Below, piece after piece: positions 23,242 to 32,131 of a stretch of 64,000 bases of DNA. The stretch comes from Pseudobacteriovorax antillogorgiicola (GTDB lineage Bacteria; Bdellovibrionota_B; Oligoflexia; Oligoflexales; Oligoflexaceae), in the NCBI RefSeq assembly GCF_900177345.1, contig NZ_FWZT01000001.1:124001-188000 (forward strand), read 5' to 3'. Within the stretch, counting starts at the first letter, position 1. The number at the start of each line of letters is the position of its first letter. Position numbers and translations under genes: made by a program. The notes under the pieces were generated by a model that was not told where the DNA came from, ran no database searches, and saw nothing but the letters and a program-made list of their open reading frames with translations.

Positions 23242-24573
23242 ATGACAAACGAGTTAACCATCACTTGGGAAATGCCCGACCCACCGGCTCAGGCGAGTAA
23301 GGACCACCTCTGGGAATCGTCGCCTATGGAGAGCAGCCCTCTAGAAAAGCGCCTCTGCTGGCCTGTCGGCACCTTACAAGTGCTCCACAAAGCGTTTCGC
23401 CACGGCCTCGACCGCTTTACTCGATGGGACCTCTCTCAAGTTTCTGATGAAAGCCCCTATATCCAAGCATCTTGCATCTTCCGCCGTGGCGTGGAGCACT
23501 CAGCATCCAAAGCACAGACTCTATCGAGTTCCTATTTGATTCGTTTGGTTGACGAACAACCCCAGTTTCTGGACCAGGTCGCAATTATCGACCAGAATGT
23601 CGCAGAGGCTTGGAGTCTCAAACCTCACCCAGGCCACCTCTGGATTGCTATTGATGAATTGAGTAAGTCTCTAGATACAGTAGCCACTGTGATTGAGTTT
23701 CTTAGAAAACACACAGCAACGCCTTTGGTAGCCATCGTAGGAGGGGGAGTTCTATGTGATACTGTGGCGTTTGCCTGTGCATTAGCTGAAAGACCGTTCA
23801 ACCTAATACCCACAACCCTACTATCCATGGTCGATGCCTGTGTCGGCGGCAAGACGGGAGTTAACTTTGAGCCATACGGCAAGAATCAACTGGGACGTTT
23901 TGCCTTCCCTGAAGAAGTCATGGTGTGGGCTGACTGGCTCAAAACCTTAGATCCTCGAGATTATCGATCCGGTATCGCTGAGTGTGTAAAGCATGGCCTG
24001 CTAGTAAAGCAAGCAAGTTTATTGAACTCCATTCCCACAGGAGTCTACGATCCATCACTACAGGACATCTTGATAGAGATTATTGAAGTTAAAGCCCGTG
24101 TCGTAAGCGAAGACCCATCAGAAATTGGCCGGCGTGCATCGCTCAATTTGGGGCACACCTTTGCTCACGGACTCGAGTCCCTTTCCCACAAGAACAGGCC
24201 TAAGGACTATCTTCGCCACGGGGAAGCCGTTGGAATAGGGTTAGGTTTTATGGCTGTACTCAGCCATCAGGCAGGCGTCCTAAGCCAAGATTCGCGAGAT
24301 CAAGTGTTGCAGGTTTTAAAAGACCAAAAACTACTTCTTTCTCAAAAGGTTCTTGAAACTTATCTTGGGTTAGGGGACCTAAGAAGCCAAGAGTCCAGGA
24401 CCCAAATTTACGGTAAACTAACCCAAGATAAGAAGAATAAAGATGGTGCCATTCACTGGATCCTCCTAGAGGAACTCGGAAGTGTCTACCAAAAGGATGG
24501 TCAGTTCACGTGCTCTGTGTCCCGGTCGACTTTTGAAACGGCGTTCGACCAGTTTGTTGCCCTACTGCCTTAA
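23242..24573 (+). CDS. 3-dehydroquinate synthase-like sugar phosphate cyclase (divergent AroB)
   Basis: A 443-residue member of the dehydroquinate synthase superfamily, NAD- and metal-dependent cyclases that make 3-dehydroquinate in the shikimate pathway or related cyclitols. NAD-binding GGG is at 167-169 and the PTTLLSMVDACVGGKTGVN block at 190-208. Metal ligands are Glu246 (SGIAECVKHG) and His residues in NLGHTFAHGLE and LRHGEAVG. Three things are unusual: about 80 extra residues before the first recognisable block, LCDTVAF where AroB normally has VGDLAGF, and no aroK or aroA neighbour. Ordinary AroB is about 360 residues. It may be the sole AroB of a divergent lineage or a different cyclase. 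The 3' end overlaps convergent murJ by 12 bp. Confidence 0.75.
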   Translation: MTNELTITWEMPDPPAQASKDHLWESSPMESSPLEKRLCWPVGTLQVLHKAFRHGLDRFTRWDLSQVSDESPYIQASCIFRRGVEHSASKAQTLSSSYLIRLVDEQPQFLDQVAIIDQNVAEAWSLKPHPGHLWIAIDELSKSLDTVATVIEFLRKHTATPLVAIVGGGVLCDTVAFACALAERPFNLIPTTLLSMVDACVGGKTGVNFEPYGKNQLGRFAFPEEVMVWADWLKTLDPRDYRSGIAECVKHGLLVKQASLLNSIPTGVYDPSLQDILIEIIEVKARVVSEDPSEIGRRASLNLGHTFAHGLESLSHKNRPKDYLRHGEAVGIGLGFMAVLSHQAGVLSQDSRDQVLQVLKDQKLLLSQKVLETYLGLGDLRSQESRTQIYGKLTQDKKNKDGAIHWILLEELGSVYQKDGQFTCSVSRSTFETAFDQFVALLP

Positions 24574-26178
24574 GCCTTTCATTTGCCTTATAAGGCTCGA
24601 CCAAGGGACTCCTAAGAGGGTCTTTGCTAGACTCGCAAATACGAGGGCCACCACGATGCCATTGGCAAGCAACGAAATGATTTTGCCGACTTTACCAAGG
24701 GGCAGTATGTAGGGCTGGAGCGCAAACTGACTAAGCCCCCATTGAACACCGATTGCTAAAATCGTGGCCAACATAAACCAAATAAGCCAGCGAAGGTTGC
24801 GCTTGTGACTCATCATGTGTCGATAAGGTAGCAGGCCTAATAGAAGAAAGGTTGCATTCAAGCTCAACGTAATGGAGCTTGTCGCTGCTAACCCTACGTG
24901 CTCAAATCGCTCCACAAGGAGGTAGTTACCAAGAAAGTTAAAGGCGATGCCAAGCAATGCCGTTTTCATTGCATAACTGGTGCGCTCAACCGCGTAGTAA
25001 AACGATGTCAGAACTTTTATCAAGCCATAGGCCAAAATACCAAACGAATAGGCGAATAAGGCGTCGCTCGTCTGCTGAACATCAAACGCACTAAAAGCCC
25101 CGTATCGGAAAAGTAAATCCACGATTTCCTGGCGGTTCACGAGCAGAAATGCAAAGCAGGCCAGCATCAGAAAGCCCACCATTCCTGTGCCTTGTTCCAA
25201 CTGCTCCATGACATCAGGACCAACCTCTTGGTTGTTCTGTGCGATCTTGCGACTCAAACTTGGTAATACTGCAACCCCAATAGCTACCCCAAATAGGCCA
25301 ATCGGCAGCTGTAGAAGGCGGAAGGCGAAGTTCAACCATGAGACAGCCCCCTCACCTAGAGACGTCGCAAAGTTAGTATTGATAAAAACATTGATTGGTC
25401 CTGCTCCGGCGGCGATCGAAGCCGGAATCATCAAGCTAACCACAGCTTTTAAATCTGGACTCCAGGGGAACTTTGCGAGGATCGCAGTTCGAAAGCCTTG
25501 AAAGCGCTCCCGACAACCCCAAGCCTGAACCACTAGTTGCGTGAAACCACCAAGCATGACTCCCACAGCCAAGCCCACGATTTCTGGATCACCAAAACTG
25601 TCTCTCAACCATGGCAGGTCCCAACCTTGAAACCATCGGGCCAAAAGCAAAGCTCCTAGAATATATCCTAGGTTCAAGCTGATGGAAGAAGCAGCACTGA
25701 TGAAAAAGGACCCTTTTTGATGAAGTGCCCCCATGATGATGGAACTCAGCATCGCGAGCCCCAAAAAAGGAAAGACCAAACGTGTTAGTCCCGTCGCATT
25801 CGTTACCAGAGCATCCCGATAGCTTGGGTCTACATCAAGGGTGAGAGCTTGCACCAGCCAAGGAGCCAAGAGAACCCCAAGAGAACAGAACACTGTGGAC
25901 ACTAGGGTAAAAAGATAGAGCCCTTGAATAAGTAGGTCCCGCGCTCGCCCTTCATCCTGCTCCGATATCTGGCTGTAAACCTTGGTGAACGAGCTTCCCA
26001 AAGCCCCTTCGGCTAGCATCTCACGAAACAAGTTGGGAATTCTAAATGCTATAAGAAAGGCATCAAGAAGAACGGAAGCGCCAAAAACTCCTCCAAGAAC
26101 TGACTCTCGGAGGAGACCACTAATTCGGCTTAGAAAAGTTCCAAGCGCGAATAACAAACTCGATTTTGCAAGGGACAA
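24562..26178 (-). CDS. murJ: Lipid II flippase MurJ (MviN)
   Basis: A 538-residue membrane protein of the MviN/MurJ family, which moves the peptidoglycan precursor lipid II across the inner membrane. About 14 hydrophobic helices are seen. The N-terminal signature GTFLSRISGLLRESVLGGVFG and the DAFLIAFRIPNLFREMLAEGALG stretch are typical, and FINTNFATSL follows in the middle. The length is normal. The start appears to be a TTG at 26178 with AGGTG upstream. The Hpt gene lies 14 bp upstream in the same direction, and a PBP gene is further upstream, giving a peptidoglycan-related neighbourhood. Confidence 0.94.
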   Translation of the reverse strand: MSLAKSSLLFALGTFLSRISGLLRESVLGGVFGASVLLDAFLIAFRIPNLFREMLAEGALGSSFTKVYSQISEQDEGRARDLLIQGLYLFTLVSTVFCSLGVLLAPWLVQALTLDVDPSYRDALVTNATGLTRLVFPFLGLAMLSSIIMGALHQKGSFFISAASSISLNLGYILGALLLARWFQGWDLPWLRDSFGDPEIVGLAVGVMLGGFTQLVVQAWGCRERFQGFRTAILAKFPWSPDLKAVVSLMIPASIAAGAGPINVFINTNFATSLGEGAVSWLNFAFRLLQLPIGLFGVAIGVAVLPSLSRKIAQNNQEVGPDVMEQLEQGTGMVGFLMLACFAFLLVNRQEIVDLLFRYGAFSAFDVQQTSDALFAYSFGILAYGLIKVLTSFYYAVERTSYAMKTALLGIAFNFLGNYLLVERFEHVGLAATSSITLSLNATFLLLGLLPYRHMMSHKRNLRWLIWFMLATILAIGVQWGLSQFALQPYILPLGKVGKIISLLANGIVVALVFASLAKTLLGVPWSSLIRQMKGLRQ

Positions 26179-26192
26179 TGCACACCTACGAT

Positions 26193-26597
26193 CTAAATAA
26201 CACTTTCCAGATCTCGACGCACATTAAGATACTCTAATTCCAAGTCTTGAACAATCACTTCAGCCTGCTCGAAGTCTTTGTAACGAGCGACACTCTGCAG
26301 TTCAAAGGCTGATTTGAGCATGCCCGCTGCCCCAACTCGCAATGCGTGGGTCGAAAGCTCCAAGGCTGCTTGCTCTAGGTCTTGATTATTCTGTGTGGTT
26401 AAATACTGGCGAGCGTTTTTCAATGAATGCAAAATCTTTTGCGAGTACTCCTCAATCGCAGATTGAAAGTCGAGACCACTGCTCGGATCGCTGATCTGCT
26501 TCAACATGTCGAGCATGTTTCGATCGATCGATGTACTCCGCTTCGAAGAGAAACCCTGGGCTATCTGAGGACTCAAAACCTTGGTTGATTTCATCAT
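26193..26597 (-). CDS. Hpt-domain (histidine phosphotransfer) protein
   Basis: A 134-residue helical protein. The central helix THALRVGAAGMLKSAFELQSV follows the Hpt pattern (H-x-L-K/R-G-x-A-x-x-x-G/L-x), with His as the likely phospho-acceptor, preceded by a helix rich in Gln and Asn and followed by a long helix ending LEYLNVRRDLE. It would relay phosphate between a hybrid kinase and a receiver. The ATG at 26597 has GGGAG 8 nt upstream. It is 14 bp from murJ, so the two are likely cotranscribed. The receiver at 22605-23111 is a possible partner (inference). The match is by pattern only; Val replaces the usual Gly after Arg. Confidence 0.6.
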   Translation of the reverse strand: MMKSTKVLSPQIAQGFSSKRSTSIDRNMLDMLKQISDPSSGLDFQSAIEEYSQKILHSLKNARQYLTTQNNQDLEQAALELSTHALRVGAAGMLKSAFELQSVARYKDFEQAEVIVQDLELEYLNVRRDLESVI

Positions 26598-26999
26598 TTG
26601 ATCGACTCCCAACTAGGACGAATTGCCATATTTTGTCATATCTATTGTTATACTGAAGATCGGATATTTTGAAGGGAAATTATTGTAATCGCTAAGTTTT
26701 TTTTCGTCATGTAGTAAGTTTACACATACTAAAAAAGGAGATAGGCAGCAGTTGGAAAACATCTTTACAAGCAACAACACAACAACAAAAGGAGCACACT
26801 TCAACAACACGAGGGATACACAATGACAGCAATCACCAGGACTTAAAGTCTTGGCGCCCAACTGCCCCTAACTCCGCTTAACATAGAGCAACCTATGTAC
26901 CAGTTTGATCGATAATTTAATTATAAATAAAGTTAGCTATTTAGTTCAAGCCAGAGAACTGAATAAATTGTTTACACACTGTCTAGATGTCAAAAAAAG
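26598..26999 (+). other. 402-bp AT-rich intergenic region with two tiny overlapping ORFs
   Basis: There is no clear gene. On the plus strand, AAAAAAGGAG (26731-26740) precedes a TTG at 26752 that opens a 24-codon frame rich in Asn and Thr and ending in TGA at 26826. A second frame starts at ATG 26823, overlapping by ATGA, with GAGGG 7 nt upstream, and encodes seven residues. A CAACA-rich stretch lies between them. Nothing transcribed rightwards follows except the 3' end of the convergent PBP gene. The region must also hold the leftward promoter of the Hpt-murJ unit; a TATAAC at about 26645 is a candidate -10. Confidence 0.3.
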
Positions 27000-28817
27000 T
27001 TACAACGAGCTTCGATGTCGCTCTCTACCAAAAGCCTTACTACGAGCGATTTGTGGTAAAAATACATCATTATCCTTGGAGCTTAGTTCCCGACTCCAGA
27101 AAAAATGTAGCCCTTCTTTAGATGAATCCTCCCCAAATGACTCACCTGTTATGATTTTTGACAATTCTCGATGGGCAGACGTTAAAACCTCTCGAAACAG
27201 ATCAGGGCTATGCCCCCCCTGCCCAGAGTCAACTCCAACCCATAGCCCCAGCAGGAAACGCTTCCCCAACAAGAGCAACCATGCGTTCTGCCGATCGTCG
27301 GTGATCGCTGCAATTGCAGGAGTAGGAGCGCCCTTTAACCAAGCAGGCGAGCTCATAGCGATATATCTTTTAAAGAGCTTGGCCCGTTGATTGCCATAAA
27401 TGGCGACCGAGCGATGGCGCTTTTGAAAAACCTGACTTGAATCATATGCAATCTGACGAATAAGATACGGTCTTCTGTATTGCCCGGTTCTAAAGGCAGA
27501 AAAATAGCTAAGAACCTCTTCCAGACTAAGGGCTTGGAAACCAAGAACAAAACTCCAATCGGCTAGTCTGTGAGGCCACTTGAGTCTGAGTAATTCTTGC
27601 CTGAGAGTTCCTAGACCCACTTGACTCAACGCCGCCCCAGCTTCAAAAGGCAACTGGCCTTGCTCGACCTGCCACGAGTCAAATGAACTTGCGTTGGAAA
27701 AGGGAAACGAAATATTGAACTTTAGCCCTATACCTCTTAAAAGAGGAAGCATGAGGCCTCCTACTGCCCTTCTACTCTGATAACTGCGATTGAATTGGGA
27801 CTGGTTATAGCTCCGGCTTCCAAGAACAGCGAGAGTTTCGCTAGTCTTGGAGTCTAGTACCATACAGGCAAATTCCAGATCAGGCGGTTGCCCTTTACTG
27901 ATCCTCTTTAGCCTCGAAAATAGCTCTTCCTGCAATGACCTATCAATTGTCGTTTGAATGGTAAGCGACCTGTCCTGGCCTGAATCAAACCCTAGCCTAC
28001 TCCCTTGCAAGACAGCCCAGTCTACGGAAAAACCATGGGTCTGCCAACGAGCTTGGAGCGACTGAACTCTTGGGGCTTCGGCCAGGGCTTGATGATAATC
28101 CTCCTGCTTGATCCACTCATCTTCAAGCATCCGCCTAAGAACGTAGCGCTGCCGATCGATAGCCCGACGATAGGATCGTTCATCGTCTAGAGCATAGCGA
28201 GCTGGCGCTTTTACAATAGCTGCTAGCAAGGCAGATTCTGCTATGGAAAGGTCTTTAGCTGGCTTTCCAAAGTAGCCTTGGGCCGCTGCACCTAGACCAT
28301 GAAAACCTGAACCAAAATATATTCGGTCAAGGTAGAGCGAAAGGATTGATGGTTTATCGAGCTGTCTTTCTAAAAAGATCGCCATAACGATTTCAGAAAC
28401 TTTGCGAGATAGGGTTTTTTCGCGTCGCTCTATTATATTCCGAACCAACTGCTGCGTGATGGTAGATCCCCCCTGTTTGAACCGCATCGCCATGAGATTA
28501 ACCCATGCGGAGCGCAGCATACCCCTCCAGGAAAATCCATGATGCTCGTAGAAGTATCGATCTTCGGCACTAATAAACGCAGCAGGAACATGAAGAGGTA
28601 GTTCTTTCAGAGACGGAGCTCGATGCCTCCTTAGCCCCCGATGCCCCAGGATCTCATCATTGCGATCTAAAACTAAAACACCATACTTAGGCTCTAAGGA
28701 GAACGCCTTCTGTAGAGACAAGTCCGATTTCCATAGACGATACCCCCAGCTCACACACAAAACAGGAATGATGATAGCTAGCGAAATCAGTGCAACGATG
28801 GTCAATCGAGTTGTCAT
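27000..28817 (-). CDS. Class A PBP-like protein: active-looking glycosyltransferase, degenerate transpeptidase
   Basis: A 605-residue membrane-anchored protein (N-terminal helix, residues 4-24). Residues 60-250 are a GT51 peptidoglycan glycosyltransferase with the catalytic Glu in SAEDRYFYEHHG (Glu85), RFKQGGSTITQQLVRN and the second-motif region ERQLDKPSILSLYLDRIYFG. From about 290 a transpeptidase-like fold follows, recognisable by FACMVLDSKTSETLAVLG and SQFNRSYQSRR. There, the catalytic SxxK block (normally GSxFKP) reads VGGLMLPLL, and the KTGT block before NAWLLLLG reads APTPAIAAI. The Ser and Lys are missing, so cross-linking activity is not expected. The tail after WVGVD is short. It probably polymerises glycan strands. 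It follows the TonB-like gene by 47 bp. Confidence 0.88.
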   Translation of the reverse strand: MTTRLTIVALISLAIIIPVLCVSWGYRLWKSDLSLQKAFSLEPKYGVLVLDRNDEILGHRGLRRHRAPSLKELPLHVPAAFISAEDRYFYEHHGFSWRGMLRSAWVNLMAMRFKQGGSTITQQLVRNIIERREKTLSRKVSEIVMAIFLERQLDKPSILSLYLDRIYFGSGFHGLGAAAQGYFGKPAKDLSIAESALLAAIVKAPARYALDDERSYRRAIDRQRYVLRRMLEDEWIKQEDYHQALAEAPRVQSLQARWQTHGFSVDWAVLQGSRLGFDSGQDRSLTIQTTIDRSLQEELFSRLKRISKGQPPDLEFACMVLDSKTSETLAVLGSRSYNQSQFNRSYQSRRAVGGLMLPLLRGIGLKFNISFPFSNASSFDSWQVEQGQLPFEAGAALSQVGLGTLRQELLRLKWPHRLADWSFVLGFQALSLEEVLSYFSAFRTGQYRRPYLIRQIAYDSSQVFQKRHRSVAIYGNQRAKLFKRYIAMSSPAWLKGAPTPAIAAITDDRQNAWLLLLGKRFLLGLWVGVDSGQGGHSPDLFREVLTSAHRELSKIITGESFGEDSSKEGLHFFWSRELSSKDNDVFLPQIARSKAFGRERHRSSL

Positions 28818-28864: not shown

Positions 28865-29788
28865 CTAGAAGGCTCCGAAACCACGAAGCCTGTAGAAGAA
28901 TGAATATACAATGGTGAGCTTTTCTTTCCCAAAGCCATCCGGCAAAGGTGCATAAGGCGAGGAGAGCTTAACCGCATCGAGAACCGCATCATCGAGTATG
29001 TCATGACCTGAGGTTTCCAAAACTTTGACCCGCTCTAGCTGGCCATCTTTGGCAATCGTAAATTCTACTTTAACCTCGCCTTGCAAGCCCCGTCGGACTG
29101 CTTCTGACGGGTAGACCCAGGTCTGGCTAAACCCCTTGCGAAGGCCTGTAAAATAACCGATAAAGCGATACTTTGATGTCGTCAAATCAATACGATCGCC
29201 GATGTCCAACTCTTCATCGATATAATCCTGATACCCAGCTTCTCGGGCCGCTACTAAGTCCTGGGCCTTTGGTAGAAGGGATTGGTAACGGCTGTCTTTT
29301 CCATTTGGCTTTGGTAACCCTGCCCCCACACCGTATCTTGGCGCCATCTCTTTCTTGCCAACCACCTTGTCTGCAGGCTGTTGCTTGCTGGCAGAGGTCG
29401 CTTTCTTCGCACTACCACCCTGCCCGACCTCCTGGTCGTTGATCGAACTTGGCCGAGATGTCTTAGTTTCTTTCTTGGCGATGTGATCTTGGTTACTTAG
29501 ATATTTCGCATCTTTAGGCTTGGCCGTTTCGGCCTGTTTGGTCTCGATAATTTTTTTCTTAGGCAAAGTAGAGTCTGGCGCAGGCTTGGGCACCACGCGG
29601 ATTTTCACTTTCGAATCCTGTTTTGGCTGCTGTGCGAGCCGTTTTCCTTTGACAGAGCCAGCGAAATTGGAGACGTTAACATACGAGAAAAGGTGCAAAA
29701 GTGCCGAGATGACGAGGGTTATCAAAAACCACTTACGATTGGGACGTGGAATCCCATTGAAGCTGACTGTTTGTTCTTTGTATGTCAT
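28865..29788 (-). CDS. TonB-family energy transducer
   Basis: A 307-residue protein with a cytoplasmic start, one transmembrane helix (about residues 20-38, WFLITLVISALLHLFSYV), a long Lys/Pro/Ser/Gln-rich periplasmic spacer (about 45-185), and a C-terminal TonB domain: GEVKVEFTIAKDGQLERVKV...SGHDILDDAVLDAV...PYAPLP. This fits TonB or TolA-like transducers that couple the inner-membrane proton motive force to outer-membrane receptors. No exbB/exbD adjoin it. The ATG at 29788 has GGAT upstream; a TTG further out is less likely. It precedes the PBP gene on the same strand and is divergent from bamD. Confidence 0.85.
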   Translation of the reverse strand: MTYKEQTVSFNGIPRPNRKWFLITLVISALLHLFSYVNVSNFAGSVKGKRLAQQPKQDSKVKIRVVPKPAPDSTLPKKKIIETKQAETAKPKDAKYLSNQDHIAKKETKTSRPSSINDQEVGQGGSAKKATSASKQQPADKVVGKKEMAPRYGVGAGLPKPNGKDSRYQSLLPKAQDLVAAREAGYQDYIDEELDIGDRIDLTTSKYRFIGYFTGLRKGFSQTWVYPSEAVRRGLQGEVKVEFTIAKDGQLERVKVLETSGHDILDDAVLDAVKLSSPYAPLPDGFGKEKLTIVYSFFYRLRGFGAF

Positions 29789-29946
29789 TTCTATCCACTT
29801 TGTAGGATTCAGAAGCTGACAAATCAATCATCAACTTGTAATACTCTCGGATACCGAATGCGCTTTTTAGACTGTTTTCGAGGGAGCCGAAACCACCAAT
29901 TTCTTAAACTATATCGGAAATAAAACTGGAATTTGAAGGGTACAAT

Positions 29947-30720
29947 ATGGAAATGCTACATTATTCTCTGAAGCGGGTTTTTATCATCCTGTTTTTACTA
30001 ATTTTTTCTCAAGCCTGCCAAGAGAAGAGTTTTAACCCTCAGGATCCAGCAGATGTCTTTGCACGAGCCTCTGAGCCTTATGAAGACGGTCTATATGACA
30101 TCGCTTTACAGAAGCTCGGCGAGTTTCGGTCACGTTTCCCGTATTCAAAGCACACCACGCAGGCTGAACTTATGATGGCAAATTGTCACTACGAATTAGG
30201 CAATTATCAGGAAGCCGCTTTCGCCTACGAACAATTTGTCAAGCTTCACCCGCGCCACCCCAAAGTTGACTTTGCCCTGTACCGGGTGGGTGAGTCCTAT
30301 TGGATCGAAGCACCCGAGGATATCGACCGAGAACAAGACTTCACACAGAAAGCACTGACCGAATGGGAAACCTTGGTCAATCGATTTCCAAATAGCCAGT
30401 ATAGCACAGATGCGAAATCAAAGATCAAGCTAGGTAAGAAGAGAATTGCTGATAGCCAAGTCTTCGTGATGAATTTTTACTGCAAGCAGGAGCGCTTTCA
30501 TTCTTGCGCATACAAGGCCCTGATAATACTTGATAAATACAAGGATTTCACCGATATCCGCAAACAGGCACTCAAGCAAGCTGCCCGATCATTCGCTAAA
30601 CTTGCTAACCAGAAAGCCGAAGACCCCGAAAGCGACAAGAACGTTTACGTTCGCTCCATGAGCCTAAAAGAACTTCAGGACAAGGCTGCGACCTTCAAAC
30701 GCCTCTCCGAAGCGAGTTGA
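29947..30720 (+). CDS. bamD: Outer membrane assembly lipoprotein BamD
   Basis: A 257-residue lipoprotein: signal peptide (VFIILFLLIFSQAC) with lipidated Cys24, then a TPR domain. ASEPYEDGLYDIALQKLGEFRSRFPYS and the AELMMANCHYELGNYQEAAFAYEQFVKLHPRHPKVDFALYRVG array match BamD/ComL-type repeats in order and length (about 245-280). BamD is the essential lipoprotein of the BAM complex that inserts beta-barrels into the outer membrane. AAGGG stands 7 nt before the ATG. A lytic transglycosylase gene follows in the same direction after 85 bp. Confidence 0.88.
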   Translation: MEMLHYSLKRVFIILFLLIFSQACQEKSFNPQDPADVFARASEPYEDGLYDIALQKLGEFRSRFPYSKHTTQAELMMANCHYELGNYQEAAFAYEQFVKLHPRHPKVDFALYRVGESYWIEAPEDIDREQDFTQKALTEWETLVNRFPNSQYSTDAKSKIKLGKKRIADSQVFVMNFYCKQERFHSCAYKALIILDKYKDFTDIRKQALKQAARSFAKLANQKAEDPESDKNVYVRSMSLKELQDKAATFKRLSEAS

Positions 30721-30805: not shown

Positions 30806-32131
30806 TTGCTCAAACGAACCCTACTCATGACCTCTTTCTTGGGTGCTTCGTGTACCACGCCATCTTCCAAAATTGTGAACCTCCCCGCTGGGCAGCAATC
30901 CGCCGCCCTACCCAGCCCAGAGCCGTTTGTCCCTGAGCCTCCCAAGGAGCGTGACCAGAGATTCTGTACCGACAGCATCTATGGCCAATACCTTAAGAAG
31001 CACTACCGTGCTGCGGCTTCGAAAGAACTCAGATCCATTCGTGGCTGGCGTCAGCGTCGGCAGTTCAAACGAAAGATCAAACACGAAGTCCGTCACCACG
31101 CAAAAATAGCCCTTGACCACTCTGAAGGAGTTGTGACCTCCGAGAGCTTCCCAGTGGTGCGGAACCCTAAAGTCGATCGCTGGATTCATTACTTTGAAAA
31201 TGAAGGCCGATCTACATTTATGAAGTGGCTCGTCCGAAGTGAGAATTTTAAGGGCATTCTCCTACCTCTTCTCAAAGAAGACGGCATGCCTCAAGAGCTG
31301 CTGTTTTTAGCCATGATTGAGTCGGGCTTTAACAATCGCGCCTACAGCAGGGCGCGAGCCACAGGGACTTGGCAATTTATGAGCGGTACCGCGAGGATTT
31401 ACGGCCTCAGGGTGAACTACTGGCTTGATGAGCGTCGCGACCCTGTGAAGTCTACCGTTGCAGCAGCCAAGTACCTCAAGGATCTCTATACAGACTTCGG
31501 TGACTGGTACTTAGCTATCGCGTCTTACAATGCTGGTCCCGGCCGAATCAATCGGGCTATTCGTCGACTCAAGACACGAGATTTTTGGACCATTGCAGAA
31601 TCAAGATACATTCGATCTGAGACCAAAAACTACGTTCCCAAAATGCTAGCGGCTCTAAATATAGCTCGAAACCCGCAAAAGTATGGCTTCTATTACATCC
31701 CGTCAGCCAATGACTACACACCCCGAGCTTCCGTAACGGTTGATCGCCCTGTAAAGCTCAGCGACGTGGCCCAAAAGCTTAATATTCCAGCAAAGTACCT
31801 TCAAAGGTGGAACCCGGAATTGATTAAAGGTATTACCCCACCCCTTCATCGCATCGATGGGCAGCCCTACAGAATCAGAATTCCAGAGAATTATGTTCAG
31901 CAGTTCGAGGCCATCAAACCAACTCTGGCATTCCTTGAAATCAAGGATGTCAAAATGCATCGAATTCGCCGTGGAGAAACTCTGACTCACATCGCAAGGC
32001 GCTACAAAGTACCTCTACGAAAAATTATGAAGATGAACCCCAACCTATCCCCACGACGTCTCCGCCCTGGCAAGAAGATTGCTATCCCCATTCCTGCAAT
32101 TATCACCAGGTCGAAGCCTAAAACAGTTTGA
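30806..32131 (+). CDS. Membrane-bound lytic murein transglycosylase, MltD-like, with LysM
   Basis: A 441-residue lipoprotein (lipobox GASC, Cys16) with a family 23 lytic transglycosylase domain at about residues 155-290. The catalytic Glu172 is in AMIESGFNNRAYSRARATGTWQF, followed by LDERRDPVKSTVAAAKYL and SYNAGPGRINRAI. The C-terminus carries one degenerate LysM-like segment (about 310-370) and one clear LysM repeat (385-432, HRIRRGETLTHIARRYKV). The domain order is that of MltD, which cleaves glycan strands to 1,6-anhydro products. The start is a TTG with AGGAG upstream. A hairpin at 32188 ends the transcript or spans into the next gene leader. Confidence 0.9.
   Translation: MLKRTLLMTSFLGASCTTPSSKIVNLPAGQQSAALPSPEPFVPEPPKERDQRFCTDSIYGQYLKKHYRAAASKELRSIRGWRQRRQFKRKIKHEVRHHAKIALDHSEGVVTSESFPVVRNPKVDRWIHYFENEGRSTFMKWLVRSENFKGILLPLLKEDGMPQELLFLAMIESGFNNRAYSRARATGTWQFMSGTARIYGLRVNYWLDERRDPVKSTVAAAKYLKDLYTDFGDWYLAIASYNAGPGRINRAIRRLKTRDFWTIAESRYIRSETKNYVPKMLAALNIARNPQKYGFYYIPSANDYTPRASVTVDRPVKLSDVAQKLNIPAKYLQRWNPELIKGITPPLHRIDGQPYRIRIPENYVQQFEAIKPTLAFLEIKDVKMHRIRRGETLTHIARRYKVPLRKIMKMNPNLSPRRLRPGKKIAIPIPAIITRSKPKTV

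Follow-up and report, generated by a model that had tools for sequence, protein, structure and literature searches.

Class A penicillin-binding proteins (PBPs) such as PBP1A, PBP1B and PBP1C combine a GT51 glycosyltransferase (GT) domain with a transpeptidase (TP) domain of the PF00905 family. What purpose can such a protein serve when its second half has lost the catalytic residues? The question is raised by a gene in a stretch of 64,000 nucleotides from Pseudobacteriovorax antillogorgiicola (contig NZ_FWZT01000001.1, positions 124,001 to 188,000; hereafter the window). Our preferred answer, to which we give a probability of roughly 0.75, is that the window protein is a TP-dead class A PBP, a glycan polymerase in which the TP fold survives to serve as a scaffold or for regulation. 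The features of the locus are collected in Table 1.

Table 1. Position of the class A PBP-like gene, its domains and former active-site motifs, and its neighbours (window coordinates; residue numbers are those of the 605-aa product)
Feature	Position	Strand	Basis or remark
Whole gene, class A PBP-like protein, GT51 + pseudo-TP, 605 aa	27000..28817	(-)	
N-terminal membrane-anchor helix, residues 2-31	28725..28814	(-)	hydrophobic; helix 2-31 in the AlphaFold2 model
GT51 glycosyltransferase domain, residues 63-230	28128..28631	(-)	Pfam Transgly E=1.2e-56; invariant columns
Pseudo-transpeptidase domain, residues 285-560	27138..27965	(-)	model retains the TP fold
SxxK site, G354-L-M-L357, without nucleophile or Lys, followed by conserved Pro358	27747..27758	(-)	alignment
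SxN site, QLP, residues about 388-390	27648..27656	(-)	alignment, less sure here
KTG site, I502-A-A504, on a predicted strand	27306..27314	(-)	alignment, AlphaFold2 model
Presumed MurJ-like lipid II flippase, also a neighbour in other genomes	24562..26178	(-)	cluster c15, MurJ matches elsewhere
139-aa protein adjoining the pseudo-PBP gene	26193-26612		no Pfam match
TonB-like protein, a conserved neighbour lying about 50 bp upstream of the pseudo-TP gene	28868..29827	(-)	TonB_C E=4.1e-18
BamD (YfiO) lipoprotein	29947..30717	(+)	YfiO E=8.6e-33
SLT + LysM lytic transglycosylase (MltD-like), conserved neighbour	30806..32128	(+)	

Domain structure and predicted fold of the window protein

The reading frame starts at ATG and contains no internal stop. 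Its product begins as expected of a class A PBP, with an anchor followed by a GT51 domain that carries the catalytic Glu, the STITQQ and the RKxxE elements in the form of EDRYFYEHHG, QGGSTITQQ and RKVSE. This confirms the intact GT51 domain claimed in a preliminary description of the DNA. Where GT51 has the motif ILExYLN, the protein has ILSLYLD, a departure that could lower GT activity. In the C-terminal half the SxxK, SxN and KTG motifs are missing. When the protein was aligned with the ordinary class A PBPs of the order, their GSSIKP was matched by GGLMLP and the KTG position was occupied by IAA, which bears out the erasure of the TP active site proposed earlier. A Pfam scan found PF00905 at residues 317-349 only, with a sub-threshold E value of 0.014; by themselves, 11 of 21 orthologues match this family (best 4.6e-13). 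A frameshift or an assembly error as the source of the missing motifs was ruled out. A six-frame search of the whole genome with PF00905 gave 7 matches and the window protein was in no frame among them, so no intact TP domain is hidden by a frameshift, and the same losses were seen in independent genomes.

The family models reflect this mixed structure. Among the curated NCBIfam families of bifunctional PBPs (PBP_1a, PBP_1b, PBP_1c and PbpC) the cut-off was reached in none, the scores being 279.6 bits for PbpC (cut-off 900) and 268.9 bits for PBP_1a (cut-off 508.75), and the window protein was aligned only up to residue 355-365. The model of the monofunctional GT51 protein MtgA (TIGR02070) gave 127 bits against a cut-off of 182.65. 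The expected activity, glycan polymerisation without cross-linking, is that of the monofunctional enzymes MtgA and SgtB, but MtgA-type proteins have no TP domain, whereas the window protein continues beyond GT51 for about 320 residues and is predicted to keep the complete TP fold. With class A PBPs it shares domain order, membrane anchor, GT51 motifs and overall fold; it differs from them in the three lost motifs and has about 90 residues fewer than the 698-aa PBP1A encoded in its genome.

The AlphaFold2 model of the window protein (pLDDT 84, pTM 0.80) contains beta3-beta5 and the C-terminal helix of the TP fold and is unsure at the last 45 residues and at 373-386. It was built on an alignment of 52 class A PBPs that includes active, ordinary ones and so favours the TP fold. 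Folded alone and without an alignment, the TP half gave no usable model (pLDDT 35.6). In a Foldseek search of the PDB the best match of the model was PBP2 of S. aureus (E=3.1e-30); E. coli PBP1b (TMq 0.63) and the Aquifex GT51 domain (TMt 0.95) were also found. The PF00905 matches of the orthologues support the fold independently of the AlphaFold2 model. Taken together, the view that a pseudo-transpeptidase has been retained behind GT51 is supported. Residues 561-605 (window positions 27003-27137) form a C-terminal tail predicted with low confidence. A short hydrophobic-Pro motif (FLP, VPF, LPV), perhaps a docking peptide, closes the sequence of most members of the family.

Loss of transpeptidase residues and distribution in the order

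A profile made from 21 TP halves detected full-length relatives in 21 of 43 genomes of the order, one per genome, with 252-368 bits. The ordinary PBPs of the same 43 genomes scored 190 bits or less and formed a clearly separate class. The full-length matches, from a search of 56 relatives, are about 590-665 aa long. Three more divergent TP-dead proteins (L169, L189 and L190) came to light on reading the bamD locus and the short GT51 proteins; with them the set comprises 24 members, the orthology of L189 and L190 not being established.

Loss of the motifs in orthologues had been set beforehand as a test of the pseudo-transpeptidase, and it was seen in 24 of 24 members. The Lys of SxxK, the Asn of SxN and the Lys of KTG are missing in every one of them and the Ser of SxxK is missing in 20. 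The former active site has drifted widely, with 10 residue types at the Ser and 8 at the Lys position. In the ordinary class A PBPs of the order (n=24) the motifs are intact, one protein being without the KTG stretch in the alignment. Among 80 class A PBPs from elsewhere, a canonical SxxK was absent in only two and KTG was present in 79, the exception being a 508-aa open reading frame that does not contain this stretch. On Verrucomicrobiota contigs, two class A PBPs (L083 and L100) show GTAMKP or GTAITP where others have GSxxKP, that is TxxK and TxxT, with KTG intact; in these, TP chemistry may have been partly lost in separate events.

Nineteen of the 43 genomes of the order yielded no member, which shows that lineages can do without the gene for long times. 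In several close relatives it has been cleanly lost. A search with the family profile found the family neither in 15 genomes of the same class outside the order nor in 291 genomes of the phylum of a Bdellovibrio MAG (G059), at a threshold that would miss divergent cases such as L169. The best match in the latter phylum reached 182.7 bits and has SxxK and KTG intact. In a search of genome contigs, the matches listed were swamped by ordinary PBPs.

In a quick tree of full-length sequences, 23 pseudo-TP members were set apart by a branch with an SH-aLRT value of 97; L190 was left out of this test, and L169 and L189 are long branches of unsure placement. In a tree of the GT half only, the pseudo-TP members were not one group, but their grouping was not rejected (p-AU 0.58, likelihood 2.79 higher). 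Long branches make the details of these trees unsure. Judged from the full-length tree, the TP-dead members share a common origin and form one clade in the order. Most likely there was one old inactivation in an ancestor within the order, after which the former active-site positions would have drifted while the fold stayed under selection, and the whole gene would later have been lost several times.

Selection on the two halves and competing explanations

The two halves of the protein could be compared in three near pairs, the other pairs being saturated at synonymous sites. For the TP half dN/dS (NG86) was 0.028/0.319, 0.052/0.247 and 0.171/1.447, or about 0.09, 0.21 and 0.12. The same pairs gave 0.018/0.283, 0.009/0.305 and 0.097/2.829, or about 0.06, 0.03 and 0.03, for the GT half. 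Since the values of the TP half are above those of the GT half but low, the TP half evolves faster and is still clearly constrained by purifying selection. It might nevertheless be thought that the TP half is a decaying, functionless leftover and that the protein acts as a monofunctional glycosyltransferase. The faster evolution of this half, the wide drift at its active-site positions, the loss of the gene in several lineages and the presence of monofunctional GT51 enzymes in the same genome would all agree with this. We consider it unlikely, however, because in 24 genomes the TP half has kept an open frame of about 250-350 codons, its dN/dS lies far below 1, R350, W526 and G528 of the TP core do not vary among 21 proteins, and a useless domain of 300 residues should have been truncated in some lineages. 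A pseudogene is ruled out by dN/dS and conservation. The catalytic loss is a conserved feature common to about half of the genomes of the order and does not mark a broken gene.

Conservation is strongest in the GT half. Of 34 invariant columns in the alignment of 21 sequences, 30 fall within the first 227 residues, among them E85, D86, H92, STITQQ (118-123), R138, K139 and E142. In the larger set the catalytic E and D are found in 24 of 24 members, the H, T, R, K and E positions in 23, and the Glu of ILExYLN in 18. In the divergent member L190 (2599-4329, genome G038) the GT51 motifs are degraded too, reading EDSTFFTNYG and ESMSLTQK. It is possibly a double pseudoenzyme, and given its degraded GT51 motif not every protein of the group has polymerase activity. 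This member, and the fact that pseudoenzyme regulators typically keep their fold but not catalysis, could be taken to mean that the proteins are negative regulators or decoys which vie with ordinary class A PBPs for partners, GT activity being secondary. The strict GT51 catalytic set of 23 members out of 24 makes this improbable, as it argues that selection in most of them has been for polymerase activity. A 670-aa protein of another kind, L008:97-2106 (G000:C17:55478-55891), has GT51 at its C-terminus behind a long N-terminal region, which from its sequence we take to resemble AsmA-like proteins.

That the TP domain is still catalytic through an alternative nucleophile or a shifted motif is very hard to believe in spite of its apparently preserved fold and the Ser in the S column of four members, because these four have G, L, Y or V three residues on in place of Lys, KTG and SxN are missing throughout, and in the family alignment the only invariant residues of the TP half are Q, R, W and G, with Ser, Cys, Lys and His conserved nowhere in it.

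Genomic neighbourhood and proposed role

The genes of the window are arranged in the order aroB (presumably), MurJ, 139-aa protein, pseudo-PBP, TonB-like protein, BamD, MltD-like protein, aminotransferase and ETF; the second of these, judged by its sequence, is presumably MurJ-like. The arrangement in G001 is the same. In G004-G006, which belong to the family of the window genome, the TonB-like gene abuts the gene of the 139-aa protein and the pseudo-PBP between them is missing, a clean loss. In ten other genomes (L149, L151, L154, L158, L159, L160, L164, L167, L168 and L169) the pseudo-PBP gene lies immediately after bamD on the same strand, with gaps of about 7-130 bp. Altogether the bamD/tonB locus houses half of the members, while the other half, including all of family f7, lie elsewhere. 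Directly after the pseudo-PBP gene, five genomes of family f8 encode a 781-aa protein (L154:10100-12442) without a Pfam match but with MORN-like repeats recognised by eye, which is a possible operon partner.

The genome has further enzymes of wall synthesis. Four other GT51 proteins have a C-terminal TP region, and SxxK and KTG could be read in three of these. Two others match PF00905 strongly but have no GT51, and the genome also encodes additional GT51 proteins and two LD-transpeptidases of the YkuD type. The suggestion in the preliminary description that the gene is tied to an unusual wall or growth mode found no support, because ordinary PBPs and LD-transpeptidases are present and close relatives have lost the gene. 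An LD-transpeptidase as the obligatory cross-linking partner found no support either: three members (in G009, G017 and G025) come from genomes without a PF03734 match, and LD-transpeptidases do not track the distribution of the pseudo-PBP gene.

The conserved GT51 domain beside erased TP chemistry points to an enzyme that makes glycan strands and relies on other proteins for their cross-linking. In the TP-dead polymerase that we propose, the membrane-anchored GT51 enzyme would polymerise lipid II into glycan strands, and the cell's other PBPs would cross-link these strands. The C-terminal domain would no longer be acylated by D-Ala-D-Ala or beta-lactams and may be kept as a folded scaffold for the docking of partners or the control of the GT domain. 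The recurring location beside bamD and tonB suggests that the protein works where wall growth and outer-membrane assembly are coordinated. A possible, if rather doubtful, extension is that the pseudo-TP domain is a docking platform for BamD or the TonB-like neighbour and thereby couples wall synthesis to outer-membrane biogenesis.

Engineered proteins offer parallels. The nearest is E. coli PBP1B(S510A), a GT-active and TP-dead class A PBP which fully prevents lysis on failure of outer-membrane assembly (PMC6428754). It differs from the window protein, whose activity we infer, in that it carries a single engineered point mutation, whereas all three motifs have been erased in a natural family. 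By analogy, the location beside bamD fits a role like that of PBP1B(S510A). Catalytically inactive PBP2B (S309A) of B. subtilis has a structural role independent of catalysis (PMC5656894). It illustrates that a TP protein lacking catalytic activity can still be important for the assembly of a complex, but it is a class B PBP without GT51 and its mutation, too, was engineered. In a limited search of open-licence papers we found no description of a natural family of TP-dead class A PBPs.

The family represents a natural experiment that uncouples the GT half of a class A PBP from its TP half. If the TP fold has been kept through the history of the order without catalysis, the TP domain has a job beyond cross-linking. 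To judge from its motifs, the cell would also possess a wall polymerase that is probably insensitive to penicillin. Moreover, the recurrent adjacency to bamD and tonB provides a testable handle on the coordination of wall growth with outer-membrane assembly.
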